A stretch of DNA of 64,000 bases. Source: Desulfonispora thiosulfatigenes DSM 11270. GTDB taxonomy: Bacteria; Bacillota; Peptococcia; Peptococcales; Desulfonisporaceae. Shown one piece after another: positions 15,380 to 29,763 of this stretch (position 1 is its first letter; each line of letters opens with the position of its first letter). The notes below the pieces were generated by a model. The model made no database searches. It saw nothing but the letters and a program-made list of their open reading frames with translations, and was not told where the DNA came from. The DNA lies in contig NZ_FWWT01000022.1 of NCBI RefSeq assembly GCF_900176035.1, positions 62,001-126,000 of the forward strand. Reading direction: 5' to 3'. The position numbers were made by a program, and so were the translations under genes.

Positions 15380-15562
15380 TTGAACAATTTAACGAAAATT
15401 CGTAATATTGTTTATAGTGGTGTTCCTTTAGATATTACAAAGACATATAACAGTAGAAAATCTAATGTTGCTGGAATTTTTGGTTATGGATGGACAAGTA
15501 ATGTAGAAGCACAGATTGTTGATGCAGGAGATGGACCAATTACTTTATCCAGAAGACGATAA
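15380..15562 (+). pseudogene. rhs N-terminal-type fragment
   Basis: About 55 codons resemble the start of the Rhs/YD shell: GVPLDITKTYNSR and AGIFGYGWTSNVEAQ match the conserved SFTRTYNS...FGYGWTHNY block of Rhs and WapA proteins. There is no secretion domain before it (an in-frame TAA lies at 15350), and the frame runs out at 15562 where another rhs segment begins in a different frame. It is best read as debris from an internal deletion. Confidence 0.65.
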
Positions 15563-17552
15563 GGTACACTCAGGAAAATATTCCTTCAAAGTTACAGGGG
15601 AAGCAGGGAAAAATAAATATATAAAGCAGCGTATTTATATCTCAGGGGACGCTAATACAAACCTTACTTTATCCGGATGGTCAAAACAGGAAGGTGCGAG
15701 TATAAGTGGTGGAAATTATACACTGCAGGTAGAAGTTAATTACACAGATGGCAGTCAGCAAAGTAGAATTTTTGCCAATGAATTTAATAAAACTACCGGA
15801 GATTGGCAGCATATTGCAGCTAAAATTAAACCTGTCAAGGCATTTAATTCTATAGACGTTTTATATATGTACTATAACCAAACCGGAACAGCCTGGTTTG
15901 ATGCCATGCGTCTTGAAGAAGGAAATGCTGTTACAAGATATGAATATGATGCCAATGAAAACTATGTAACAAAATTAATAGATCCTCTTGGTAGTAGCGT
16001 AACTTATGGCTATGATGATAACAGTAACCTAACAGACATGACCATTACAGCATGTGCAGTAACATCAACCCAGGGATATATCTATAACCCGTTAAATCAA
16101 GTAACAAGCTTAACTCGAAACGGTGCAAGTCTTGAAAAATTTGTCTATGATGAGCAAGGAAATGTAATTTCGGTAAAGCGTTCAAATGAAACCTATACTT
16201 CCTTAGAATATGATGATGCAAAACGCTTAAAAGCAATAAAAAATTACAACGCATCCGGAGAACTCCTGGATAAATATGAATACTCCTATGATGCTAATGG
16301 CAACAGAACAAGTGTGGTAACAAAAAATGGAACAATAAATTATCAGTATGATGAATTAAATCAGTTAACCCAAGAGACATTATTAGATGGAACAACAATA
16401 TCTTACGAATATGATGCCGTAGGAAATAGAACCAAGAAAATTGTAACCAAGGGTAGCTCAACAACTACTAATTACACTTATAACGCTGGCAATGAATTAA
16501 CAGCAGTAGACGGGCAAACTTACACCTATGATCAAAATGGAAATTTAACAAATAATAGAGATAATACATTTATCTACAATGCAGAAAACAGATTAATTGA
16601 AATAAAAGGTTATTTAAATCAAACCCTAGCAACCTTCACTTATGATTATACAGGTAAAAGGAATAGTATGACCACATCCAATGGGATTGTATACTTCCAT
16701 TACAATCAAGATAATAAAGTAGTTTATGAAACCGATAGCAGTAACAATATCATAGCTGAATACACTTATGATACACAAGATAATCCTGCAACCATGACAA
16801 AAAATGGCACGACTTACTATTACCATGTGAATGGTCATGGCGATGTAATGGCTCTAATTGATGGAAGTGGCAATATCGTTGCACAGTATAGCTACGATGC
16901 CTGGGGTAATATATTATCTCAAAGTGGTTCGATGGCATCAGAAAACCCTTACAGATATGCTGGATATAGATATGATGAAGCAACAGGGCTTTATTATTTG
17001 ATGGGAAGGTATTATGATTCTAATACAGCTAGGTTCATTACAAGAGATATTTTTCATGGATTCGAGGATAATGTTTTATCTCAAAATCAATACGCTTATT
17101 GTCAAAATAATCCTATAATGGCAATTGATCCGAGTGGAAATATTGCAATTTCCCTTAATAAAAAACTTTACCTTGGATCTGGCGGAACAGCAAATGTATA
17201 TTTAAGAGGATGGACAGAAAATTGGGGAAGAAAAGGAGCTATAACAGCAATTATTAATATGAGAGTAACGTGGGGAGCAATAGGAATATTTGTTGTTTCA
17301 ACTCTCACTGTATGGAAAGTCAAAGCAGCCGCAGTAGCATGGCTAGAAAGATATACGTATCTTAAAGAAATAATTTACGATACTATTAAGTTCTCTGCAG
17401 TGGCAACAGTTGTGTATTTAGGGGTTAAGGACCGAATTAAGTGGGTGATACAATCAGCCTTTAAAGGAGCAGATAGTGCAATTATGAAAATCCCTGGTGC
17501 TACTAAAGTTGCTTTTCAAAGAAGACTTGAAGTAAGAAAAGAGTGGGGTTAA
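15516..17552 (+). pseudogene. Rhs/YD-repeat protein, truncated, with toxin-like tip A
   Basis: The frame encodes a beta-sandwich module (residues 17-140), many YD repeats (for example YDANGNRTSV, YDAVGNRTKK) and the RHS core RYAGYRYDEATGLYYLMGRYYD...FITRD, ending in the DPSGN hinge near 17130. Beyond the hinge a unique tip of about 135 residues, partly hydrophobic with a basic end, is a candidate polymorphic-toxin domain. The first codons are not Rhs-like and come from the out-of-frame junction with the N-terminal fragment, so the natural 5' end and secretion signals are lost. It could be silent or a recombination reservoir. A hairpin and a small membrane protein gene follow. Confidence 0.75.
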
Positions 17553-17561
17553 ATTAATAAA

Positions 17562-17587
17562 TGAGAAGGCCAGAATTGGCCTTCTCA
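17562..17587 (+). terminator. Hairpin after rhs tip A
   Basis: GAGAAGGCCA and TGGCCTTCTC form a perfect 10-bp stem with loop GAAT, extended by one T-A pair. No T-run follows, so it may be a weak terminator or an mRNA 3' stabiliser. Confidence 0.5.
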
Positions 17588-17665
17588 AATTATTAGATTC
17601 TAAAAGTAAAAAAGTATTAACTGATTAAAAGAGTACTTCTTATACTAGAACTCGGAGGAAATGAT

Positions 17666-17887
17666 ATGAAGGATACATTATCAGTAATAGTATTTACTAT
17701 TATAGGTGTATGTTTGATAGTTTTTGGAGTTTGGGATATTATAAAACAAAAAAGAATCTTATACTTAGATAAAGAGTTTAAATTGAGACTATTTATATAT
17801 GTTTTTGCAGTAAGTTACCCAATATTTATGATTATTGTAGGTATTTTATTTATTTTACTGACTATTCTTGCTTATAGCGGAAATTAA
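17666..17887 (+). CDS. Small two-pass membrane protein, candidate immunity protein for tip A
   Basis: A 73-residue protein with two hydrophobic segments (about 6-24 and 45-70) around a short charged loop (KQKRILYLDKEFKLR). GGAGGA sits well placed before the ATG. Its position right after the variable rhs tip is where immunity genes lie, and a membrane immunity protein would suit the hydrophobic tip. There is no family match that I recognise, so the role is inferred from position only. Confidence 0.5.
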   Translation: MKDTLSVIVFTIIGVCLIVFGVWDIIKQKRILYLDKEFKLRLFIYVFAVSYPIFMIIVGILFILLTILAYSGN

Positions 17888-17992
17888 CCTGATATTATAA
17901 TATAAAAAAATACGACTTTTTTATTGAAAACTATATGACATTAATAGTTTACTTTATAAATTTAGTTATTGCTATTAAGGAGGGAAAATGTT

Positions 17993-18217
17993 TTGGGTAG
18001 AATAATATTTCTTATATTTATATTATTATTAGGTTTATTAGGAATTAAATTAGGCTATAAAGAAGTTAGAAAACGAAGCGATAGGGAAAATCTATTAGAA
18101 GCATTAATTTCTATATTCCTAGGTGATTTTGACATAACGAATGTAGGTGTAATAATTGTCAGTATGTTAACTGTTATTTTTGCAATATTAGCACTAATTT
18201 TGGGATGGGGAAAATAA
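17993..18217 (+). CDS. Small membrane protein, candidate orphan immunity protein
   Basis: A 74-residue protein with hydrophobic N-terminal (about 2-20) and C-terminal (about 50-72) helices flanking a charged middle (KEVRKRSDRENLLEA). I take the TTG at 17993 because AAGGAGGG lies eight bases before it; a TTG at 17969 would place that site inside. Its layout parallels the preceding 73-residue protein. It ends five bases before the second rhs fragment begins, suggesting a leftover immunity gene of an exchanged cassette. Confidence 0.45.
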   Translation: MGRIIFLIFILLLGLLGIKLGYKEVRKRSDRENLLEALISIFLGDFDITNVGVIIVSMLTVIFAILALILGWGK

Positions 18218-18222
18218 CTTAA

Positions 18223-19140
18223 AACCTAACAGACAATGGTAATAAGAAATTTATCTATGATGTAGAAAATAAGCTAATAGAAGTAAAAAATTCTGCAAAT
18301 CAAACTATAGCTTCTTTTACCTATGATCATGAAGGCAAGAGAAATAGCATGACCACTTCAACTGGAACAGTTTATTTCCATTACAGTGGAGATAAAGTAG
18401 TTTATGAGACCGATAGTAGTAACAATATCATAGCTGAATATACTTATGATGCCCAAGGTAATCCAGCTACAATGACAAAAAATAGTACAACCTACTATTA
18501 CCATGTAAATGGACATGGTGATGTAATGGCTATGACTGATGGAAGTGGTACTATTGTTGCTCAGTATAATTATGATGCCTATGGAAACATATTATCTCAA
18601 TCAGGCTCAATGGCAGAATCTAACCCCTACAGATATGCGGGATACAGATTTAATGAAGTAACAGGACTTTACTATCTAATGGCAAGATATTATGATGCTG
18701 AAATTGGTAGGTTTATAACAAGAGATACGTTTCATGGGTTTGAAGATGATCCACAATCTCTAAATCAGTATGCTTATTGTTCGAATAACCCGGTGATATA
18801 TGTGGATCCGAGCGGTAATTATGCTACACGATATGGTTATTGGAATCTTGTTGATATTGTAGGATTTTTAACTACAGGATATATATTAGTAAAATTAGGT
18901 ATAGGGATTTTTAGTAAATGGATAGTCCATAAGGTAACTTATATTTTTTATAATATTACAGCAAGAGAGGTAATAGGAAAATACAAAAAAGGGGCAATTA
19001 ATAGAGAATTTCCTTCTGAATATCTAGATAAAACATTAGATGAAATAGAAAGATTAGCAAAAAAAGGAGTAAAGACAGCTAAGAAAGCCAAGAAACTATT
19101 ACAGGATAAAAGATTTGATAAGGGGGATAATCGAAAATGA
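18223..19140 (+). pseudogene. Rhs core fragment with toxin-like tip B
   Basis: Rhs similarity starts abruptly at 18223, just after an in-frame TAA. It reads through YD repeats and the core RYAGYRFNEVTGLYYLMARYYD...FITRD to DPSGN near 18815. The first in-frame ATG is 18349. The unique tip of about 104 residues has a hydrophobic stretch, then a basic helical end (EIERLAKKGVKTAKKAKKLL). That form resembles the tails of many Rhs and WapA nuclease tips, but I cannot name the family. It overlaps the next gene by four bases (ATGA), a typical toxin-immunity arrangement. It probably represents an orphan cassette. Confidence 0.7.
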
Positions 19141-19769
19141 ATGAATTGGATAAAATTCTCAAATTTATATATTCGTTTTTTTCAGATATAAATTATGTAG
19201 AAAATAATAATTTAATTTATGAATTTAACAATGATAACTTAAATTTAAATAAGAAGGATGATAAGGTAATAGGATTAAATATTCTTAAAAAAATACAAAA
19301 TCTAATTCCTGAGTTTAAAGTTATTGATTGGACAGATTTAGAAGATACGAGATGCTATGAATTTCGAATTTTGCTAAATAAAGTTGAAAATATCTTAGAT
19401 GACGATAATGATTTATTAAAGGTATTAGGAGGTAAAAGGCAAGATTTATATCTTTTTATAAGTAGAATAGCAAATTACTATTACATGTATATAGAAGATA
19501 CAGAATTTAATGAAGATACAGGAGAACTTAAATTTACTAAAAACATTAGTTTTGATAAATATAGTTTAGATATAAAAAATAAATTAGAAATGCTCATGAA
19601 TGATTTAGGCTATATAAGATTAGATGATGAAGTCGCAAAAACAGTTATTTTAAATGTAGAAACTGAATACTTGGAGAAGAATAAAGTAAAAATTTTTAAT
19701 TGTCTTTTTACAGAATTTGATGAGTTATATGAAAAAAAGATTGTTCAAAGGGTATTAAATAATAAGTAA
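19137..19769 (+). CDS. Candidate immunity protein for tip B
   Basis: A 210-residue soluble, acidic protein with no signal peptide or membrane segment. Its start overlaps the stop of the tip-B reading frame in ATGA, strong evidence of coupled expression. An acidic partner would suit a basic toxin tip. The family is not recognised. Confidence 0.6.
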   Translation: MNELDKILKFIYSFFSDINYVENNNLIYEFNNDNLNLNKKDDKVIGLNILKKIQNLIPEFKVIDWTDLEDTRCYEFRILLNKVENILDDDNDLLKVLGGKRQDLYLFISRIANYYYMYIEDTEFNEDTGELKFTKNISFDKYSLDIKNKLEMLMNDLGYIRLDDEVAKTVILNVETEYLEKNKVKIFNCLFTEFDELYEKKIVQRVLNNK

Positions 19770-19882
19770 GCATACCAAAATCTCCATCTTAAGTTTAGGT
19801 AGCTTTGCTGCTGGGTTATAGGATTATGCTTCAGATAGAAGACTTGATGGGAAGATAACTATATAGAATAACTAGAATAATT

Positions 19883-19911
19883 AGGGGAAAATCAATGTTT
19901 GATTTTCCCCT
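19883..19911 (+). terminator. Hairpin after the tip-B immunity gene
   Basis: AGGGGAAAATCA and TGATTTTCCCCT make a perfect 12-bp stem with loop ATGTT, followed by a C-broken T stretch. The bases from 19770 to 20026 otherwise show no gene. Confidence 0.65.
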
Positions 19912-20026
19912 CTTCATAACTTAATGAAGAAATAATAAATAACATATATAAGAGATATACAAGCCTATTATTAAAAGTGGAACTTAATATTAATTGAGGT
20001 TTTTGGAGGGAGGCGTATAAAATTAT

Positions 20027-20701
20027 ATGACTCAGGAGAAAGAAGTGGAATTTTATTGTTATACAGAAGATACAGATTCCAAAGGATTTGATATTTATAT
20101 TAATGAAGTTAAAATCAATGACAATTTAAAGTATTATGATAAAAACTTTCAATGTAAATGGTCATGTTTACCAGGAAAATACAACATAAAATTTGTGCAA
20201 AAACATTTTCTTAATTCCCGATTATGGTTTCTAAATACCGTATTTTCAATGATTGCTATGTTTTTAGCAGGATATTATGAAGAAATCAATCTAAAGGGAC
20301 CATTTTATTCAATTCAAGAGGGAGAATTATTAATTAAAGATAATGCTGTCTTAGAAATAAAGCTGAAAAGATCTAATATTTTTTTTAAGCTCCTATTTGA
20401 TGAAATAACAAATTATGGGTTCTTCATTGAAGCTAAATCTAATTGTTCATATAATTGTAAGAACGAAGAAGTAGTTGTTACATCAAAACTTAGAAGACGT
20501 TTTATTATTTCAGTGCTGTTACCTATTAGTATCGCTTTTCTTTTTATAACTATTTTACTTATTATAAGTGGCATTAATTTTTTCCAAAAGGGTGCTTTCG
20601 TAGGTGGTACTTTATTTGGACTAGTGATTACATTTCTTTTTATCATGTATATTAGAGTAGCTAAAAATATATTAAATGTTGTCTTTGGTAAACAAAGGTA
20701 G
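20027..20701 (+). CDS. Hypothetical membrane protein in the rhs island
   Basis: A 224-residue protein with a cytosolic-looking N-terminal half, a hydrophobic stretch near 65-82 and two strong membrane helices near 160-182 and 190-210. GGAGGGAGG lies upstream, though about a dozen bases from the ATG. It is flanked by rhs fragments, so an orphan immunity role is possible. The last part of the gene is duplicated as a 34-base exact copy at 22399, showing that this region has recombined. Confidence 0.5.
   Translation: MTQEKEVEFYCYTEDTDSKGFDIYINEVKINDNLKYYDKNFQCKWSCLPGKYNIKFVQKHFLNSRLWFLNTVFSMIAMFLAGYYEEINLKGPFYSIQEGELLIKDNAVLEIKLKRSNIFFKLLFDEITNYGFFIEAKSNCSYNCKNEEVVVTSKLRRRFIISVLLPISIAFLFITILLIISGINFFQKGAFVGGTLFGLVITFLFIMYIRVAKNILNVVFGKQR
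20634..20667 (+). repeat. 34-base direct repeat, copy 1
   Basis: This segment inside the 3' end of the 224-codon membrane gene is identical to 22399-22432. It encodes the FLFIMYIRVAK region. Confidence 0.85.
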
Positions 20702-20749
20702 AGCATATTAAACACATTACCATATAAGTATAAAATAGCAACACAACTA

Positions 20750-21815
20750 TATATATCTAGGGGACTGGTTGTTGTTTTATCTGGTGATGAAAATACCAAG
20801 CTTACCTTATCTGGATGGTCAAAACAGGAAGGTGCGAGTATAAGTGGCGGAAATTATGCTCTGCAAGTAGCAATAAATTACACAGTTGGTAATAGGACAA
20901 GTATTACAGATGGAAAAGGAAAACAACCTCCTTTACCTATGACAAGAGAAATCTGTTAACTAAAGTAAAGGATGCAAAACTAAATGAAACCCTATAAGGT
21001 TATGATAATGCAGGAAACCGTACAACTGTTACTGATGCCAGAAACAAGGTAACAAGCTATGAATATAATGAATTTAATCAAGTATCAAAAATAACCAATC
21101 CATTAAATCAAGTAACTCAATTTGGTTACGATAAAAACGGAAACACCACTAAGATTATTTTCCCTAAGGGAGATACTGTATCTTATAGCTATAACGCTCT
21201 TAACCTAATGAATGGTGTATACCATAGTGGTGTAAAAAAATGGGATTTTGGCTATGATGCTAATGGCAATAGGACAAGTGTGGTAACAAAAAATGGAACT
21301 GTTAATTACCAGTACGATGAATTAAATCAGTTAACCCAAGAGATATTACTAGATGGAACAACAATTTCCTACGAATATGATGCCGTAGGAAACAGGAAAA
21401 AGAAAATCGTAACTAAGGGTAGCTCAACAACTACTAATTATACTTATAACGATGGCAATGAATTAACAGCAGTAGATGGGAAAACTACACTTATGATCAA
21501 AACGGAAACTTAACAGACAATGGTAATAAGAAATTTATCTATGATGTAGAAAATAGGTTAATAGAAGTAAAAAATTCTGCAAATCAAACTATAGCTTCTT
21601 TTACCTATGATCATGAAGGTAGAAGAAATAGTATGACTACATCCGCAGGAACAGTTTATTTCCACTACAATGGAGATAAAGTAGTTTATGAAACTGATGA
21701 AAGTAATAATATCATAGCTGAATACACCTATGATGTTCAAGGTAATCCAGCAACAATGACAAAAAATAGTTGCAGGATTACTACCATATAAATGGACATA
21801 TGATATAATGGCACT
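20750..21815 (+). pseudogene. Degenerate third rhs copy
   Basis: This is a mosaic of rhs pieces with frameshifts and stops. The first part (to about 20960) copies the beta-sandwich module of the first rhs (LSGWSKQEGASISGGNY). Then come YD repeats starting with GYDNAGNRTTVTDARNK. The segment 21208-21513 reads for 101 codons before a one-base loss (AAACTACAC versus AAACTTACAC in copy A) breaks it. The next part, to about 21770, closely matches the start of the tip-B fragment and then degenerates before reaching any toxin tip. It is clearly non-functional. Confidence 0.85.
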
Positions 21816-22150: not shown

Positions 22151-22291
22151 AACTAACTACAATAACTAAATAACTATAATCCTATATAGAGATGATATGA
22201 ATATGGAGAAAACAGCAAATTTCGCATGCATGCATATACGCGTAATGCGTATAGGGAAATTTGGGTTTAGTTAGTTATTTAGTTATTAGTT
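22151..22291. repeat. Inverted repeat arms rich in TAGTTATTTAGTTATT
   Basis: The left arm (22151-22176) carries AATAACTAAATAACTA and the right arm (22272-22291) carries TAGTTATTTAGTTATT. Between them lies a small palindrome ATACGC-GTAAT-GCGTAT. It follows the VapE-like scrap, so it may be a leftover control or replication site of a phage or plasmid. The region from 21816 to 22756 holds no intact gene. Confidence 0.5.
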
Positions 22292-22432: not shown

Positions 22433-22450
22433 GATAATAAATGAAGATAA

Positions 22451-22484
22451 AAGGCCAACCATATTCCTATGGTTAGCCTTTTTG
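22451..22484 (+). terminator. Intrinsic terminator closing the rhs island
   Basis: AAGGCCAACCATA pairs with TATGGTTAGCCTT (one mismatch) around loop TTCC, followed by TTTTT. The following 270 bases before the next gene are AT-rich with no gene seen. Confidence 0.75.
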
Positions 22485-22756: not shown

Positions 22757-23968
22757 ATGACTACAGAGACGAAAGAAATTATAAAGTTTGAAAAAGATTT
22801 TACGCGCCAAGAAGCAATTCCAGAGGCAGGGATTAAAAGAGCCTTAGAGATACTAGAGACAGGATGCCTACATAGATATAATACGCCAAAAGGTGAAGTA
22901 TCAGATGTGGCCCTTTTAGAAAAAGAATATGCTGACTATGTAGGAGCAAAGTATTGTGCTGGACTTTCTTCTTGTGGTAGTGCAATATATGTTGCCTTAA
23001 AGAGTGTGGGAGTAAAGCCAGGTGATAAGGTTTTATGTAATGCATTTACATTAGCACCTGTACCAGGGGCAATCGAAAATGCTGGGGGAATACCTGTATT
23101 TTTAGAGATTGATGAAAATTTCTTAACTAATCTGGATGATTTAGAGAAAAAAGCGGTTGAATCACAGGCAAAGTTTTTACTTTTATCTCATATGCGTGGA
23201 AACATTGTTGATATGGATAGAGTTACAGAAATTTGTAGTCGTCTAGGAATTACCTTAGTTGAAGATTGTGCTCATACAGTAGGTGCTCGTTGGGGCGATA
23301 AATATACGGGAACATTTGGTAAGGCGGGTTGTTATTCTACTCAAACTTATAAGCATATGAATTCAGGAGAAGGTGGACTATTAGTTTCAAATGATGAAGA
23401 CGTTATAGCTAAAGCTATTTTATATTCTGGATCTTATATGTTATTTGATCGACATATTTCTAGACCTTCGGTAGAAGTGTTTGAACGTCATAAAAAGAAT
23501 ATTCCTAATTTTAGCTTAAGAATGTCAAATTTAGTAGCTGCATTACTTAGACCTCAATTAGCGGATCTTGATACACAATTAAAGCGATGGAATGATAGAT
23601 ACTATGTGTTAGCAAAGGGATTAGAAGGAGTAAATCATATTCGTATTCCTAAAAGACCAGAAAAAGAACATTTTGTAGCATCTTCACTGCAATTTACTCT
23701 TACTGATATTAATATTGAAATGGTAGAAAAGTTTATAGCTGTATGTGCAGAAAGAGGGGTAGAAATTAAGTGGTTTGGGGCAAAAGAACCTAATGGATTT
23801 ACAAGCTCTTGGGAAAGTTGGGAATATATCAAAGAGAAACAAAAGCTTCCTCAAACAAGAGAAGTTTTAGATTTCTTATGTGATTTCCGCATACCACTTA
23901 CCTTTAGTTTAGAAGATTGTGAAGTTATTACAAAAGTAATTCGTCAAGTAGTAGAAGAAATATTTTAA
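22757..23968 (+). CDS. DegT/DnrJ/EryC1-family PLP aminotransferase
   Basis: This is a fold-type I PLP enzyme of the DegT/sugar aminotransferase family. The probable PLP lysine is K199 (TQTYKHMNSGEGG) and the pyridine-contacting aspartate D170 (LVEDCAHTVG). The 403 residues are a full-length DegT protein. Most relatives act on nucleotide-linked keto sugars, but no sugar or cell-envelope gene is nearby. It instead heads a group of amino-acid-type catabolic genes, so its substrate is open; an amino or keto acid role is inferred from context. GGAGGG lies nine bases before the ATG. Confidence 0.8.
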   Translation: MTTETKEIIKFEKDFTRQEAIPEAGIKRALEILETGCLHRYNTPKGEVSDVALLEKEYADYVGAKYCAGLSSCGSAIYVALKSVGVKPGDKVLCNAFTLAPVPGAIENAGGIPVFLEIDENFLTNLDDLEKKAVESQAKFLLLSHMRGNIVDMDRVTEICSRLGITLVEDCAHTVGARWGDKYTGTFGKAGCYSTQTYKHMNSGEGGLLVSNDEDVIAKAILYSGSYMLFDRHISRPSVEVFERHKKNIPNFSLRMSNLVAALLRPQLADLDTQLKRWNDRYYVLAKGLEGVNHIRIPKRPEKEHFVASSLQFTLTDINIEMVEKFIAVCAERGVEIKWFGAKEPNGFTSSWESWEYIKEKQKLPQTREVLDFLCDFRIPLTFSLEDCEVITKVIRQVVEEIF

Positions 23969-24097
23969 ATAAGGTTATAAATTTAAAATATTAAAATATA
24001 GATGTAGAAAGCAAAAGATACTAAAGGTTTTAATTTTATTAATGATTTAGCTAGAGTTGCCACAAAATTCAATCAATTTTATGAGAGGTAGATTAAT

Positions 24098-24811
24098 TTG
24101 GGATTTACAAAACATTTGCCATTACATATACAGATAAAAATTAAACTTGAAGAAGAAATTTTAAATGAAGTTTATGATGAAAAGATTCCAGGTGAATTAG
24201 ATTTAATGGAAAGATTCTCTGTAAGTAGATCTACAATTCGTCAAGCAATAGCAGCACTCGTAGAAGAGGGAATTTTAGAAAAAAGACATGGTAAAGGAAC
24301 CTTTATCTCGTTAAAGCCAGTAGAAGAATGGCTAGGTAGTTTTAGTACTTATGAAAACATTATTGATGACATGGGTATGAAGCCATATATTAAGTTTTTA
24401 AGTATGGAAATGACTAGTACTCCTCAAAACGTAGCTAAGACATTAGAAGAGGAAGTTTTCTATAAAGTAAAAAGAATACGTTATGCAGATGAAAACCCAG
24501 TATCCATTGAGGAAAACTATTACCCTCTGGAGTTAGGGAAAAAATTAGCTAAATTTAATTGGGATAATGTTGCTTCTTATAGTTTGCTCGATTCCTTAGG
24601 CGTAAAACTTTGGGATGCAAAGCAGATAATCACTTGTAGAATGCCTGTAAAGGAAGAATGTAAGTTACTTAATATAGACGAAACTATTCCTGTTTTATTT
24701 ATAGAGCGCCTTAATTTTGATCGAGAAGGCAATATTGTGGAATATGAGCACAGTGTTTATCGTTCCGATCATTATGCTTTTATCGTAAAGCTGGGGCGAA
24801 ATGAAAATTGA
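24098..24811 (+). CDS. GntR/HutC-family transcriptional regulator with UTRA domain
   Basis: An N-terminal winged helix-turn-helix (about residues 8-75, DLMERFSVSRSTIRQAIAALVEEGILEKRHGKGTF pattern, here cited only as its key spread) precedes a UTRA ligand-binding domain with ERLNFDREGNIVEYEHSVYR near 208-227. Regulators of this type respond to small metabolites of the pathway beside them. It lies between the aminotransferase and the dehydrogenase genes and is the likely local regulator. A palindrome downstream (24848) may be its operator. The start is TTG behind GAGAGG. Confidence 0.9.
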   Translation: MGFTKHLPLHIQIKIKLEEEILNEVYDEKIPGELDLMERFSVSRSTIRQAIAALVEEGILEKRHGKGTFISLKPVEEWLGSFSTYENIIDDMGMKPYIKFLSMEMTSTPQNVAKTLEEEVFYKVKRIRYADENPVSIEENYYPLELGKKLAKFNWDNVASYSLLDSLGVKLWDAKQIITCRMPVKEECKLLNIDETIPVLFIERLNFDREGNIVEYEHSVYRSDHYAFIVKLGRNEN

Positions 24812-24847
24812 AAATTAATCATTGTAAGAAGGCTATTTTTTTGGATA

Positions 24848-24865
24848 CAGATGTCCGTACATCTG
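24848..24865. promoter_or_regulatory. Palindrome, candidate GntR operator
   Basis: CAGATGT-CCGT-ACATCTG has perfect seven-base arms. It lies about 85 bases before the HisD-like gene and just after the GntR regulator gene. Size and symmetry fit a GntR/HutC dimer site. Confidence 0.5.
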
Positions 24866-24903
24866 AACATATGAACATATGAACATTCTAACATTTATAT
24901 AAT
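24864..24903 (+). promoter_or_regulatory. Direct repeats plus -10 box before the HisD-like gene
   Basis: The heptamer TGAACAT occurs three times at eight-base spacing, then a degraded TCTAACAT. A TATAAT box lies at 24898-24903. The -35 position (about 24875-24880) is poor and falls inside the repeats, which suggests activator control. Confidence 0.4.
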
Positions 24904-24934
24904 ATCTGAAATTTATTCTTAAGGGAGTGAACTT

Positions 24935-26227
24935 ATGAAAAGGTATATCAAAGAAAAAAACGTACAAGTGAAGAAAACTGGTGCTGAGGTTCAAGAAACG
25001 GTAGCTAAAATTATTGAGGATATTCGCCAAAATGGTGATTTAGCAGTAAGAAAGTACTCAAAGCAATTTGATAACTGGTCACCTGAATCTTTCTTAATGT
25101 CAAAGGAAGAACTTGAAAAAGTAAGTAAAACTGTATCTGATATCGACAAACAAACTATTAATTTTGCCCAAGAATCTGTTAGACGTTTTGCTCAAAAGCA
25201 ATATGAAATGATTAAAGATTTTGAAGTGGAATTATTTCCAGGCGTGGCTTTAGGTCAAAAAACAGTTCCTTTAAATTCTTCTGGTTCTTATGTACCAGGT
25301 GGAAGCTATCCAATCGTGGCTTCTGCTAATATGAGTATCACTCCTGCTGTAGTTGCGGGAGTAAAAAGGGTTGTATCTGTAACCCCTCCTTTTAAAGGCG
25401 AGGTGCCAAAGAATACAATTTATGCTATGGCATCAGCAGGTGCTACGGAAGTATATTGCTTGGGTGGAGTTCAAGGGGTAGTAGCAATGGCACTTGGTAC
25501 GGAAACCATTAAACCAGTAGATATGATTGTTGGACCAGGCAATAAATTTGTAGCTGAAGCAAAAAGACAATTATACGGTGAGGTAGGAATAGATCAAATA
25601 GCAGGTCCATCTGAAGCTTTAGTAATCGCTGATGATAGTGCTGATCCTGAAATAGTTGCCTCTGACTTAGTAGCTCAAGCTGAGCATGGTGTTGAATCTG
25701 AAGTAGTATTAATCTGCTTATCAGAAGATTTTGCAAATAAGGTTATTAGAGAAGTTGAGAAACAAATAAGTGAATTACCAACTGGAGAAATCGCTAAAAT
25801 TTGTTGGGATAATAATGGTGAGGTAATAGTTGTAGATAGCATTGAAGAAGCTGCAGAGCTTTCAGACTTTTATGCTAGTGAACACGTAGAAATCCAAACC
25901 CAGCAGGATGAATGGCTTCTTGAAAACTTAACAAATTATGGTTCATTATTTGTAGGAGAATATTCAACCGTAGCCCTTGGAGATAAAGGTATTGGTACAA
26001 ATCATATTTTACCAACAAGAAAAGCAGGACGTTATACGGGTGGTTTATGGGTTGGAAAGTTCTTAAAAACCTTAACTTATCAAAAATCAACTGCAGAAGG
26101 TCTTAAATATGTAGCACCATATTGTTCTCTTTCTTGTGCTATGGAAGGTATGATGGGACACAAGGCATCTATTGATAAGAGATTAGTAAAATGTAACTAT
26201 CCAGTTCCAAATTATGAAAAGAAATAA
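24935..26227 (+). CDS. HisD-family dehydrogenase, probable sulfopropanediol- or amino-alcohol-type
   Basis: This is an NAD-dependent zinc dehydrogenase homologous to histidinol dehydrogenase. The zinc and catalytic residues are intact: Q248 and H251 (AQAEHG), E316 and H317 (ASEHVEIQT), D350 (LGDKGIGTNH) and H409 (MGHKAS). The segment RYTGGLWVGKFLKT differs from biosynthetic HisD and recalls HpsN-type sulfopropanediol dehydrogenases. No other his gene is present, so histidine synthesis is unlikely. The neighbours (racemase, cysteate/cysteine lyase-type enzyme, permease) suggest four-electron oxidation of a C3 sulfonate alcohol or amino alcohol. The substrate is inferred. Confidence 0.8.
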   Translation: MKRYIKEKNVQVKKTGAEVQETVAKIIEDIRQNGDLAVRKYSKQFDNWSPESFLMSKEELEKVSKTVSDIDKQTINFAQESVRRFAQKQYEMIKDFEVELFPGVALGQKTVPLNSSGSYVPGGSYPIVASANMSITPAVVAGVKRVVSVTPPFKGEVPKNTIYAMASAGATEVYCLGGVQGVVAMALGTETIKPVDMIVGPGNKFVAEAKRQLYGEVGIDQIAGPSEALVIADDSADPEIVASDLVAQAEHGVESEVVLICLSEDFANKVIREVEKQISELPTGEIAKICWDNNGEVIVVDSIEEAAELSDFYASEHVEIQTQQDEWLLENLTNYGSLFVGEYSTVALGDKGIGTNHILPTRKAGRYTGGLWVGKFLKTLTYQKSTAEGLKYVAPYCSLSCAMEGMMGHKASIDKRLVKCNYPVPNYEKK

Positions 26228-26260
26228 TTAAATAAGACGCTTTTACGAGGAAGTGATAGT

Positions 26261-26950
26261 GTGTCCAGTAAAACTCTGGGGATAATTGGTGGGATGGGAC
26301 CTGAAGCAACGGTGGATCTTATGATGAAAATTATTAAAAAAACTCCAGCTAAAGTCGAACAAGATCACATCAGAGTAATTGCTGATAATAATCCTCATAT
26401 ACCTTGTAGGATTAAAGCAATTATGGAAAATGCCGAAAGCTCAGGTCCCATGATGGTAGAAATGGCAAAAAATTTAGAAAAAGCAGGAGCAGATTTTTTA
26501 GTAATTGCCTGTAATACAGCTCACTATTATTTTAAGGATGTAGAAGCAGCAGTTAATATTCCAGTTTTAAATATAATTGATGAGACGGTAAAGGTATTGC
26601 TTCAGGAAAAGGTACAAAAGGTTACTTTACTAGCTACTAAAGCAAATATATATACGGGACTTTATGATAAAGCATTAAATCAAACAGGGATAGAGCTAGT
26701 ATTACCTTCAGAAGCTTATCAAGAAAAAGTATTAGACGTTATCGCCAAAATCAAGGCTGGTAAATATGAAGAAGCTAGAAGTTATACAGATGAAATTATT
26801 AATCATTGCATGGAATTAGGTGCTGAAGCTGTTATTTTAGGCTGTACTGAGCTACCGATGGCCTTTTGTGATCAAGAAAACTTACCAATTTATCTATATG
26901 ACCCAGCTGATATTATTTCAGAAGTAATTGTAACTAAGGCGTTAAATTAA
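26261..26950 (+). CDS. Aspartate/glutamate-racemase family protein
   Basis: This is a PLP-independent amino-acid racemase with the two-cysteine mechanism: C84 in IACNTAHYY and C195 in LGCTELPM. It opens with GIIGGMGPEATVDL, typical of aspartate racemases. The 229 residues are full length. The start is GTG with GAGGA nine bases ahead. It lies 33 bases after the HisD-like gene and so is probably in the same operon. Since cysteate is the sulfonate analogue of aspartate, a D/L-cysteate racemase is an attractive reading; aspartate or glutamate racemization is the conservative one. Confidence 0.85.
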   Translation: MSSKTLGIIGGMGPEATVDLMMKIIKKTPAKVEQDHIRVIADNNPHIPCRIKAIMENAESSGPMMVEMAKNLEKAGADFLVIACNTAHYYFKDVEAAVNIPVLNIIDETVKVLLQEKVQKVTLLATKANIYTGLYDKALNQTGIELVLPSEAYQEKVLDVIAKIKAGKYEEARSYTDEIINHCMELGAEAVILGCTELPMAFCDQENLPIYLYDPADIISEVIVTKALN

Positions 26951-27061
26951 TAAAGTGAAGCTGTTGTTTATATTTGCTTAGTTTTAGGAATATAAAATTT
27001 ACAATTAAATATTAAATTTAAGTTTTATATTAATATATTACAAATAAAAAGGAGAATAAAT

Positions 27062-28069
27062 ATGAATTTAGCTAAATTTCCAAGAAGAAGATATACAGAG
27101 GGTTTTACTCCTATCGAAAAACTAGAGAATTTTTCAAAAGCTCTAGGTGGTCCTAATATTTATATGAAAAGAGATGACATGTTAGGCTTAACTTCTGGTG
27201 GTAATAAAACAAGAAAATTAGAATTTCTAGTAGCGGATGCGTTAGAACAAGGTGCAGATACCCTTATTACCTGCGGTGCTGTGCAATCTAACCATTGTCG
27301 TTTAACACTAGCAGCAGCTGTAAAAGAAGGTATGAAATGTAGATTAGTCTTAGAAGAAAGAGTTGCAGATAGTTATAGTCCGGATGCAAGTGGAAATAAC
27401 TTCTTATTTAACCTTTTAGGAGTTGAATCTACTAAAGTAGTTGCCGGTGGAACAGATTTAATGAAAGAAATGCAAACAATCGTTGATGAATTAGCTAAAG
27501 AAGGTAGAAAAGGTTATATTATCCCTGGTGGTGGATCAAATGAAATCGGTACATTAGGTTATGTTTCATGTGCTGAAGAAATTGCTACTCAATTATTTGA
27601 AAAAAGTCTAAAAATTGATCACCTTGTAACTCCAAGTGGTAGTGCAGGAACTCATACTGGTTTAGTAACCGGTTTTATCGGTAATAACATGAATATTCCT
27701 ATTACAGGTATTGGTGTTAACCGTAAAAAAGACGTTCAAGAAGAAGTAATCTATAATCTTGCAAAGAAAGTAGCAGCTAAATTAGGAATCAATCAAGAAA
27801 TTCCTCGTGATGCAGTAGTAGTTTATGATGATTACGTTGGACCTGGTTATTCTTTACCAACTGATGAAATGGTTGAGGCTGTTAATTTATTAGCTAAAAC
27901 TGAAGGTATCCTACTTGACCCTGTATATACAGGTAAGGCTATGTCAGGTTTAATAGGTCTTATTCGTAAGGGCGTATTTAAAAAAGGTGAAAATGTTTTA
28001 TTCGTACATACTGGTGGATCTCCAGCTTTATATGCATACATTCCTACTATTTTAGGAAAAGACAGTTAA
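27062..28069 (+). CDS. D-cysteine desulfhydrase / L-cysteate sulfo-lyase family PLP enzyme
   Basis: This is a fold-type II PLP lyase of the ACC deaminase/D-cysteine desulfhydrase family. The PLP lysine is probably K49 (SGGNKTRKLEF), followed by the CGAVQSNHCR substrate loop, IPGGGSNEIGTLGYV and the GILLDPVYTGKAMSGL block. Members release sulfide from D-cysteine (DcyD) or sulfite from L-cysteate (CuyA), forming pyruvate and ammonia. The SNHCRLT loop differs from the SNHVRQT of E. coli DcyD. With a racemase, a HisD-like dehydrogenase and a permease beside it, the sulfo-lyase reading is favoured but not proven. AAGGAGAA precedes the ATG. Confidence 0.8.
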   Translation: MNLAKFPRRRYTEGFTPIEKLENFSKALGGPNIYMKRDDMLGLTSGGNKTRKLEFLVADALEQGADTLITCGAVQSNHCRLTLAAAVKEGMKCRLVLEERVADSYSPDASGNNFLFNLLGVESTKVVAGGTDLMKEMQTIVDELAKEGRKGYIIPGGGSNEIGTLGYVSCAEEIATQLFEKSLKIDHLVTPSGSAGTHTGLVTGFIGNNMNIPITGIGVNRKKDVQEEVIYNLAKKVAAKLGINQEIPRDAVVVYDDYVGPGYSLPTDEMVEAVNLLAKTEGILLDPVYTGKAMSGLIGLIRKGVFKKGENVLFVHTGGSPALYAYIPTILGKDS

Positions 28070-28111
28070 TTGTAAGTTTTATTAATTAATTGGCTCTAAG
28101 TTCTCTTTATT

Positions 28112-28150
28112 AGCACCCAAAATACTGTAAAAAGCAATTTGGGTGCTATA
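28112..28150 (+). terminator. Hairpin before the permease gene
   Basis: AGCACCCAAA and TTTGGGTGCT form a perfect 10-bp stem with a 16-base loop. The following ATATTTA is a poor U-tract, so partial read-through into the permease is likely. Confidence 0.6.
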
Positions 28151-28192
28151 TTTATATCAATAAAAGGAATATTTTTAAAGAGGAGGGATTAA

Positions 28193-29623
28193 ATGCAAGA
28201 AAATAGATCTGAATTAACGAAAAATCTATCACCTGTAGCTATTTGGTCAATTGCGTTAGGTACAATTATTGGGTTTGGTGCTTTTGTTTTACCAGGTGAA
28301 TGGCTAAAACTAGGGGGTCCAGGAGGTATTTTAATTGGATTTACCCTTGGTGGACTGTTTATGCTTGTTATCAGTCGTAGTTATGGTTTTATGGTTGAAA
28401 AGATTCCTATAGCTGGAGGAGCAGCAGCTTATGCATATGGAGTATTAGGTAGACCACATGCTTTTATTGTTGGTTGGGGTCTAGTATTGGCCTATGGATC
28501 TATTGTTCCTTTAAATGCAACAGCTTTAGCACTAGTGGGTAAATTTGTGGCACCTGGTTTATTTTCCAAGGTTTATTTATATAATTTTGCAGGATGGGAT
28601 ATATATCTAGGGGAAATTTTATTAGCAAGTGCCTTAATTATTGGATTTGGAATACTTAATTATCGTGGAATAAAAGAAGTTGGTAATATGCAAATGGCGA
28701 TGATTTTTTTAATGGTGGGCACGATATTAATTATAACAGCAGGAGCTTTAATGTATGATGGGTCAACTATTACCAATTTAAAGCCTTTCTTTGCAGCCAA
28801 TAAAAGTATCTTTGCAAGTATTGGTGCAGTGTTAGCTATTACACCTTGGGCATTTTGCGGATTTGATACAATTCCACAATCATCAGAAGAATTTAACTTT
28901 GATCATAAAGAAACCTTTCGCTTATTAGTGTTTGCGATCCTAGCAGGGCTATTAATGTATCTTGCAATGTGTTTTTCAACAGCAGTAGTTATTCCGTGGC
29001 AGGAGTTAATTAATAAGGATGTGCCTTGGTATACAGGATTTACTACAGAAACGAGTTTAGGAATGTTAGGGTTAATTTGCCTAGTTATTGCAGTAACGAT
29101 GGGAGTGGGAACAGGAATTAATGGTCAATTATTATCTAGTACACGTATTTTATTTAGTATGGGCAGAGCAAAAATTCTTCCAGAATGGTTTGCAAAGGTT
29201 AATCCAAAGTTTGGTACTCCAGGTAATGCCATAATATTCATAACTGTTCTTTCTTTATTCTTTCCATGGATCGGACGTCAAGTAGTGCTTTGGATAGTGA
29301 ATATGGCAGCGGTAGGAAATTCATTGGGATATGGATATACCTGTTTAGCTGCTTGGTTACTTGCTAAAAACTACCCTCATCTTACGACAAAAGCAAATAA
29401 GTTTTGGTTTTTCTTAGGCTTTGCATTTTCAGTGATACTTTTAATATTACTAATTGTACCAGGGATGCCAGCCTTTTTAACACCGCTAGAATTCACTTTA
29501 TTAGGGTTTTGGATATTAATGGGTGCAGTGCTATATATTTACCAATCTAAGAGAGTGAATTTAACAAAAGATGAGCAAGATCAGCTGATGCTCGGTGATA
29601 TCAGAATCGAAAATTTAAAATAA
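28193..29623 (+). CDS. APC-family amino acid permease
   Basis: A 476-residue integral membrane protein with about twelve hydrophobic helices. The first helix carries GTIIGFGAFVLPGEW, the unwound glycine motif of APC transporters, and helix 6 has the TPWAFCGFDTIPQSSEEF segment. It should import an amino acid or analogue by a secondary mechanism. As the last gene of the racemase-lyase cluster it is the probable uptake system for the cluster's substrate. AGAGGAGGG precedes the ATG. Confidence 0.85.
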   Translation: MQENRSELTKNLSPVAIWSIALGTIIGFGAFVLPGEWLKLGGPGGILIGFTLGGLFMLVISRSYGFMVEKIPIAGGAAAYAYGVLGRPHAFIVGWGLVLAYGSIVPLNATALALVGKFVAPGLFSKVYLYNFAGWDIYLGEILLASALIIGFGILNYRGIKEVGNMQMAMIFLMVGTILIITAGALMYDGSTITNLKPFFAANKSIFASIGAVLAITPWAFCGFDTIPQSSEEFNFDHKETFRLLVFAILAGLLMYLAMCFSTAVVIPWQELINKDVPWYTGFTTETSLGMLGLICLVIAVTMGVGTGINGQLLSSTRILFSMGRAKILPEWFAKVNPKFGTPGNAIIFITVLSLFFPWIGRQVVLWIVNMAAVGNSLGYGYTCLAAWLLAKNYPHLTTKANKFWFFLGFAFSVILLILLIVPGMPAFLTPLEFTLLGFWILMGAVLYIYQSKRVNLTKDEQDQLMLGDIRIENLK

Positions 29624-29716: not shown

Positions 29717-29763
29717 AAAAGTGATGAATATATTATACATAATATGTTCATCACTTTATTTTT
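29717..29763 (+). terminator. Intrinsic terminator after the permease
   Basis: A long AT-rich stem, AAAAGTGATGAATATATT with AATATGTTCATCACTTTA (one G-U pair), has a short loop and is followed by TTTATTTTTT. It closes the catabolic cluster. Confidence 0.8.

Follow-up and report, generated by a model that had tools for sequence, protein, structure and literature searches.

Desulfonispora thiosulfatigenes DSM 11270 carries a six-gene cluster that probably serves the catabolism of a C3 amino-sulfonate, most likely cysteinolate (2-amino-3-hydroxypropane-1-sulfonate), via cysteate to pyruvate, ammonia, and sulfite. We give this reading, drawn from sequence comparisons, a probability of roughly 0.6. 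The cluster was found in a window of 64,000 nucleotides, i.e. the whole stretch of DNA that was analyzed (contig NZ_FWWT01000022.1, positions 62,001 to 126,000). It consists of 6 intact open reading frames (ORFs), all on the + strand (window positions 22757-29623) and flanked on both sides by terminator-like hairpins. The gene content, families, and coordinates proposed in an initial annotation, made from the DNA letters alone, were borne out by the ORFs and by Pfam and NCBIfam, which agree on all 6 family assignments:

22757-23968, + strand: DegT/DnrJ/EryC1-family pyridoxal 5'-phosphate (PLP)-dependent aminotransferase, with the catalytic lysine in STQTYKHMNSGEGG; the linkage-defining member
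24098-24811, + strand: GntR/UTRA transcriptional regulator (Pfam, NCBIfam)
24935-26227, + strand: HisD/HpsN-superfamily dehydrogenase, branching deeply and separately on the HpsN side; proposed C3-alcohol dehydrogenase for aminosulfonates
26261-26950, + strand: CuyB-type cysteate racemase with the Asp/Glu racemase fold and both cysteines
27062-28069, + strand: CuyA-type D-cysteate sulfo-lyase (PLP)
28193-29623, + strand: amino acid-polyamine-organocation (APC)-superfamily permease, candidate importer (Pfam, NCBIfam)

A CuyA-type lyase and a CuyB-type racemase

The lyase scored 543.7 bits against the NCBIfam model of the CuyA D-cysteate sulfo-lyase (NF052482), above the curated cut-off of 450; the biochemically characterised CuyA of Ruegeria pomeroyi scores 553 bits on the same model. 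With the D-cysteine desulfhydrase equivalogs it reached 285-296 bits and missed their cut-offs. The predicted function of the lyase is the release of sulfite from cysteate. The racemase likewise passed the curated cut-off of the CuyB cysteate racemase model (NF052483; 252.7 bits, cut-off 190), and both of the cysteines expected by the initial annotation are present in its ORF (ACNTAH and GCTELP). Published work describes CuyB as interconverting L- and D-cysteate and CuyA as preferring D-cysteate. The earlier proposal of a sulfonate pathway ending in CuyA is thereby supported; the match to the cysteate racemase family also agrees with the role given to the racemase, for which conversion of L- to D-cysteate is now the best reading.

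A dehydrogenase on the HpsN side of the HisD superfamily

The dehydrogenase shares with HisD the fold, the catalytic Glu-His pair, and the metal ligands, and HisD provides the precedent of a four-electron oxidation of an amino alcohol. As the initial annotation had stated, the zinc and catalytic residues are intact: the catalytic pair Glu316-His317 and the metal ligands Gln248, His251, Asp350, and His409 align with those of HpsN and E. coli HisD. Among proteins in the PDB, the best match was CpHpsN, the 3-dehydrogenase of 2,3-dihydroxypropane-1-sulfonate (DHPS), with 384 bits, followed by an R-DHPS dehydrogenase (349 bits) and E. coli HisD (274 bits). The cut-off of the hisD model TIGR00069 was passed, but HpsN-type proteins pass it as well. 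The two families are discriminated by the motifs GSAPL (HisD) and GRY[AS]H (HpsN), and in CpHpsN the sulfonate is contacted by His126 and Lys353, with L-cysteate sitting in the site as the product does (PMC11382572). The corresponding positions of the window protein are:

25301-25315, + strand: Gly-Ser-Tyr-Pro-Ile (GSYPI), residues 123-127; GRY[AS]H in HpsN, GSAPL in HisD
25979-25987, + strand: Gly-Asp-Lys (GDK), residues 349-351, i.e. the metal-ligand Asp and the lysine equivalent to the sulfonate-contacting one of CpHpsN; GDY in HisD

The HpsN lysine after the metal-ligand Asp (Lys353 in CpHpsN) is thus present. In the tree, the window dehydrogenase fell into a clade that also comprises HpsN and a third group, consisting of HisD paralogs, and that is separate from HisD (support 100/100). 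Within this clade it lies outside the HpsN crown (100/100); a constrained placement with HpsN rather than with the third group was not rejected (approximately unbiased test, p 0.46). It neither clusters with HisD, from which it is split with full support, nor carries GSAPL or GDY, nor lies in a his operon. By sequence, it is not a HisD but forms a deep lineage of its own within the HpsN-side clade, in line with the earlier view that it is not a histidinol dehydrogenase. Grouping of the dehydrogenase with true HisD and of the lyase with DcyD only, which would have spoken against the proposal, was not what the tree and the CuyA cut-off gave.

Separately, about 12 Bacillota genomes (loci L041-L055, e.g. 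L045 8533-9798 and L044 8125-9402) have HisD paralogs that stand alone, apart from any his operon, with the motifs GRYPLPSS and GDY.

A recurring four-enzyme unit defined by the aminotransferase

The aminotransferase (PF01041, 187.9 bits; PLP lysine kept in all aligned relatives) had been left unplaced by the initial annotation; it emerged as a core member of the cluster from the loci of its relatives. These are rare: among 399 sampled Bacillota they occur in this genome alone, and none was found in 247 genomes of the phylum of Dethiosulfatarculus, in a search run without a positive control. Eleven plasmid records matched, and the 10 with 47-53% identity all adjoin a CuyA match. Examination of the contexts of these 10 loci showed that every one (10/10) encodes CuyA, DegT, a racemase of CuyB type, and a dehydrogenase of the HisD family, the same four that are adjacent in the window. 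On the Polaromonas plasmid, tblastn recovered CuyA and HisD only in pieces that fall in different frames, so this copy may be broken. The hosts are alpha-, beta-, and gammaproteobacteria (Ensifer, Shinella, Mesorhizobium, Ancylobacter, Paracoccus, Leisingera, Pseudomonas, and Polaromonas). Most of the plasmid units include tauABC, other ATP-binding cassette (ABC), or tripartite ATP-independent periplasmic (TRAP) uptake systems, many have a CuyZ/YeiH-type exporter, and a sulfite oxidase is encoded near the unit of Pseudomonas MPC6. Because gene order and transporters vary among them, the four enzymes appear to stay together for function and not by recent copying. CuyA, DegT, CuyB, and the HisD-family dehydrogenase are a recurring unit, which further strengthens the case for sulfonate catabolism. 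The plasmid records are annotated gene by gene and name no pathway; the unit could explain why many plasmids have genes labelled 'hisD' and 'D-cysteine desulfhydrase'.

The seven plasmid dehydrogenases examined all belong to the HpsN type, and the tree places the DHPS dehydrogenase of R. pomeroyi type (8wwe) within them; the two plasmid racemases tested scored 286-287 bits on the CuyB model. The window shares the specific DegT clade with these units (48-53% identity), whereas its racemase is mostly only 33-35% identical to theirs, and an APC permease stands where the plasmids have tauABC, other ABC, or TRAP import together with CuyZ/YeiH-type export. With its non-HpsN dehydrogenase and a CuyA of SNHCRLT rather than SNHARQT type, the window unit is, to judge from these lineages, assembled from other sources.

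The units of Pseudomonas MPC6 (L194), Paracoccus seriniphilus (L197), and Leisingera (L199) adjoin N-demethylation-type genes (FAD-dependent oxidoreductase), in some cases also genes for an electron transfer flavoprotein, folD, purU, and Rieske-type or MttB-family proteins. These neighbors hint at N-methylated aminosulfonates as substrates.

CuyA without the dehydrogenase

At 45 CuyA loci of named genomes, where product names of the neighbors were read from sequence by eye, frequent partners were CuyB, amino acid ABC or GltP-type transporters, DauR-type regulators, and RidA; no HisD-like gene was seen, and a DegT gene occurred at one locus only, a distant one (32%). No cuyA was found beside the HisD-like relatives in Bacillota (loci L010-L023), and the other CuyA genomes searched hold HisD-family proteins only at 33-44% identity and away from cuyA. 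Loci of this kind look, from their gene content, like those of direct cysteate users. Among the closest known systems is cysteate dissimilation by CuyA and CuyB in R. pomeroyi (SPOA0158, adjoining TRAP genes and a CuyZ-type exporter) and its relatives. The window resembles that system in its CuyA-family lyase above the cut-off, its CuyB-family racemase, and the predicted sulfite product, but adds the HisD-family dehydrogenase and DegT upstream, lacks CuyZ in the cluster, and has an APC permease and a GntR/UTRA regulator where that system has TRAP and LysR proteins. The addition of HisD and DegT to CuyA and CuyB suggests that the substrate is a precursor of cysteate.

Fate of sulfite

The genome was examined through targeted searches, in which dsrD, dsrMK, dsrC, and asrAB were identified by eye from sequence. 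Contig 5 carries dsrAB with dsrD, dsrMK-like genes, and dsrC, and contig 17 carries asrABC-like genes; nothing above the AprA cut-off was found in the 99.6% complete assembly. DsrD marks reductive-type systems. With DsrAB and DsrD present and AprA absent, sulfite is a plausible electron acceptor, as the initial annotation had anticipated; for an organism that respires sulfite but does not activate sulfate, organosulfonates would be a source of electron acceptor. In addition to DsrAB and AsrC, two very similar 219-amino acid sirohaem-type (NIR_SIR) proteins are encoded on contig C21 (~49.4-51.3 kb, L007), separated by ~500 bp.

Proposed pathway

We infer the substrate and the individual reactions in this organism from the gene families and their association. 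The APC permease would import cysteinolate, and the HisD/HpsN-family enzyme would use two NAD+ to oxidize the alcohol group at C3 of cysteinolate to a carboxylate, giving L-cysteate. This step is modelled on HisD with histidinol and HpsN with DHPS: in both cases the acid is formed from a primary alcohol whose neighboring carbon bears an amino or hydroxyl group, and cysteinolate is the amino-sulfonate of that shape. CuyB would then racemize L- to D-cysteate, from which CuyA would eliminate sulfite and, by deamination, form pyruvate and ammonia. According to our derivation, D-cysteinolate and L-cysteate are both R under the Cahn-Ingold-Prelog priorities and have the same spatial arrangement; oxidation of natural D-cysteinolate to L-cysteate would therefore explain a racemase ahead of the D-preferring CuyA. 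Since the reaction of DegT enzymes is an amine exchange at a carbonyl carbon, the natural guess for the aminotransferase is the pair cysteinolate/3-hydroxy-2-oxopropanesulfonate: it probably exchanges the C2 amine with this keto form and would so admit the ketone or the wrong enantiomer. The ketone has been detected alongside cysteinolic acid in diatoms and coccolithophores (PMC11131964). Sulfite would pass to the DsrAB/DsrMK/DsrC system as electron acceptor, and the GntR/UTRA protein would act as the local regulator.

Several observations weigh against this proposal. A sulfonate-type transporter and a sulfite exporter are absent from the window cluster. The cysteinolate route gives a task to every enzyme but DegT, which is not strictly needed. 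CuyA belongs to the SNHCRLT lineage and not to the characterised SNHARQT lineage, and D-cysteine is also a reported substrate of CuyA-type enzymes. The CuyB model is matched above its cut-off in 75 of the 399 Bacillota genomes, so a CuyB match alone proves little, and the model probably catches other amino acid racemases too. Of the two sulfonate contacts of HpsN, the window dehydrogenase retains the lysine and loses the histidine, having Ile127 in place of His126. Finally, the related GDK-type HisD paralogs of the third group lie in catabolic clusters without sulfonate genes.

Alternative explanations

The cysteate endgame could be the same but entered from DHPS or its C2-ketone, DegT aminating 3-hydroxy-2-oxopropanesulfonate (or sulfopyruvate) and the dehydrogenase working like HpsN on DHPS-type substrates. 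We consider this unlikely, though it is the best of the alternatives. The HpsN-type dehydrogenases of the plasmid units, with 8wwe nested among them, speak for it, as does the report that, for the known route from sulfolactate to cysteate, the aminotransferase and the racemase had yet to be found in R. pomeroyi. However, the sulfolactate and DHPS 2-dehydrogenases (SlcC, ComC, HpsO, and HpsP) are absent from the window cluster, none of them recurs as an annotated partner across the ten plasmid units, the window dehydrogenase lacks the His126 of HpsN, and an amino-sulfonate better fits a taurine-type transporter and a racemase. Known DHPS catabolism (hpsN with hpsO/hpsP) has in common with the window a HisD-superfamily dehydrogenase for a C3 sulfonate alcohol and the conserved GDK lysine; the window differs from it in having GSYPI, in the absence of hpsO and hpsP, and in a predicted route that reaches CuyA by way of cysteate, the cluster having no step through sulfolactate.

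Less probable still is a cluster that handles no sulfonate, in which the racemase and a D-cysteine desulfhydrase would act on D-amino acids and the HisD-like enzyme on an unrelated amino alcohol or a sugar-derived alcohol. The reported desulfhydration of D-cysteine by CuyA-type enzymes, the 362-bit match of the lyase to the PDB D-cysteine desulfhydrase 7ysk, and the GDK-type HisD paralogs in diverse non-sulfonate clusters are in its favor. It is opposed by the scores of the lyase, above the CuyA cut-off and below those of the D-cysteine desulfhydrase equivalogs, and by the taurine-type uptake and sulfite-handling genes in relatives of the recurring unit.

The statement of the initial annotation that no other histidine genes are present holds for the neighborhood but not for the genome, as contig 15 carries a his operon (hisZ-G-H-AF-IE-D-B). 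Its HisD (L039 8898-10184) is divergent at metal and substrate positions, with IEAEHG for SQAEHG, LANF for GDY, and GPNA for GTNH, and this divergent form is the sole strong HisD-family match in relatives without the window gene (e.g. G027 and G443). These relatives would rely on it, so the window gene is probably unneeded for histidine. That the window gene is instead the working histidinol dehydrogenase in a chance neighborhood, as the divergence of the contig 15 enzyme might suggest, is very improbable, since the divergent HisD presumably suffices in G027 and G443 and the window protein branches with HpsN-side proteins. The divergent form occurs in L175, L174, and L193 (relatives and Formimonas warabiya), next to a divergent HisB, and the his operon further contains a natural HisA-HisF fusion in one continuous 516-amino acid ORF (L039 6759-8309).

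DNA signals around the cluster

Besides the genes, the following features were noted:

22449-22482: terminator-like hairpin with a 15-bp stem, upstream of the cluster
24850-24863 (whole region 24850-24886): perfect 5-bp inverted repeat GATGT-CCGT-ACATC followed by GAACATAT direct repeats, read by eye
28111-28148: inverted repeat with 16-nt arms (88%) and a 6-nt loop, without a strong T-run, between cuyA and the permease gene
29718-29757, + strand: terminator-like hairpin with an 18-bp stem, downstream, ending the cluster

The inverted repeat GATGT-CCGT-ACATC and the GAACATAT repeats, upstream of the HisD-like gene, are a possible operator of the GntR/UTRA protein; matches to the HutC-type operator consensus were no commoner than chance. 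A promoter-like site at 22290 was dropped as the cluster promoter because a terminator-like hairpin intervenes. The GC content is the same as that of the neighborhood, with no break that would indicate a foreign origin, and an Rfam search of the window gave zero matches. RHS-repeat gene pieces lie directly upstream of the cluster (window 15516-21513), possibly as part of a variable island.

Significance

Cysteinolic acid is reported to be a widespread microalgal solute with cellular levels like those of dimethylsulfoniopropionate or DHPS (PMC8703288). The literature searched treats it as an osmolyte of algae and deals with CuyA, CuyB, and HpsN one by one; no description of the four-gene unit or of genes for cysteinolate breakdown was found there, most subscription journals being outside the reach of the search. 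The existence of curated CuyA and CuyB equivalogs indicates that curators are aware of cysteate racemase work. We tentatively suggest, at somewhat less than even odds, that this is the first catabolic gene set for cysteinolate, possibly for N-methylated forms too. It would occur on proteobacterial plasmids and in an anaerobe of the Bacillota that respires sulfite, and its dehydrogenase would have been drawn twice, independently, from different lineages of the HisD superfamily. If so, the four genes would provide a marker for genome searches, and algal sulfonates would be linked to sulfide production in anoxic settings.

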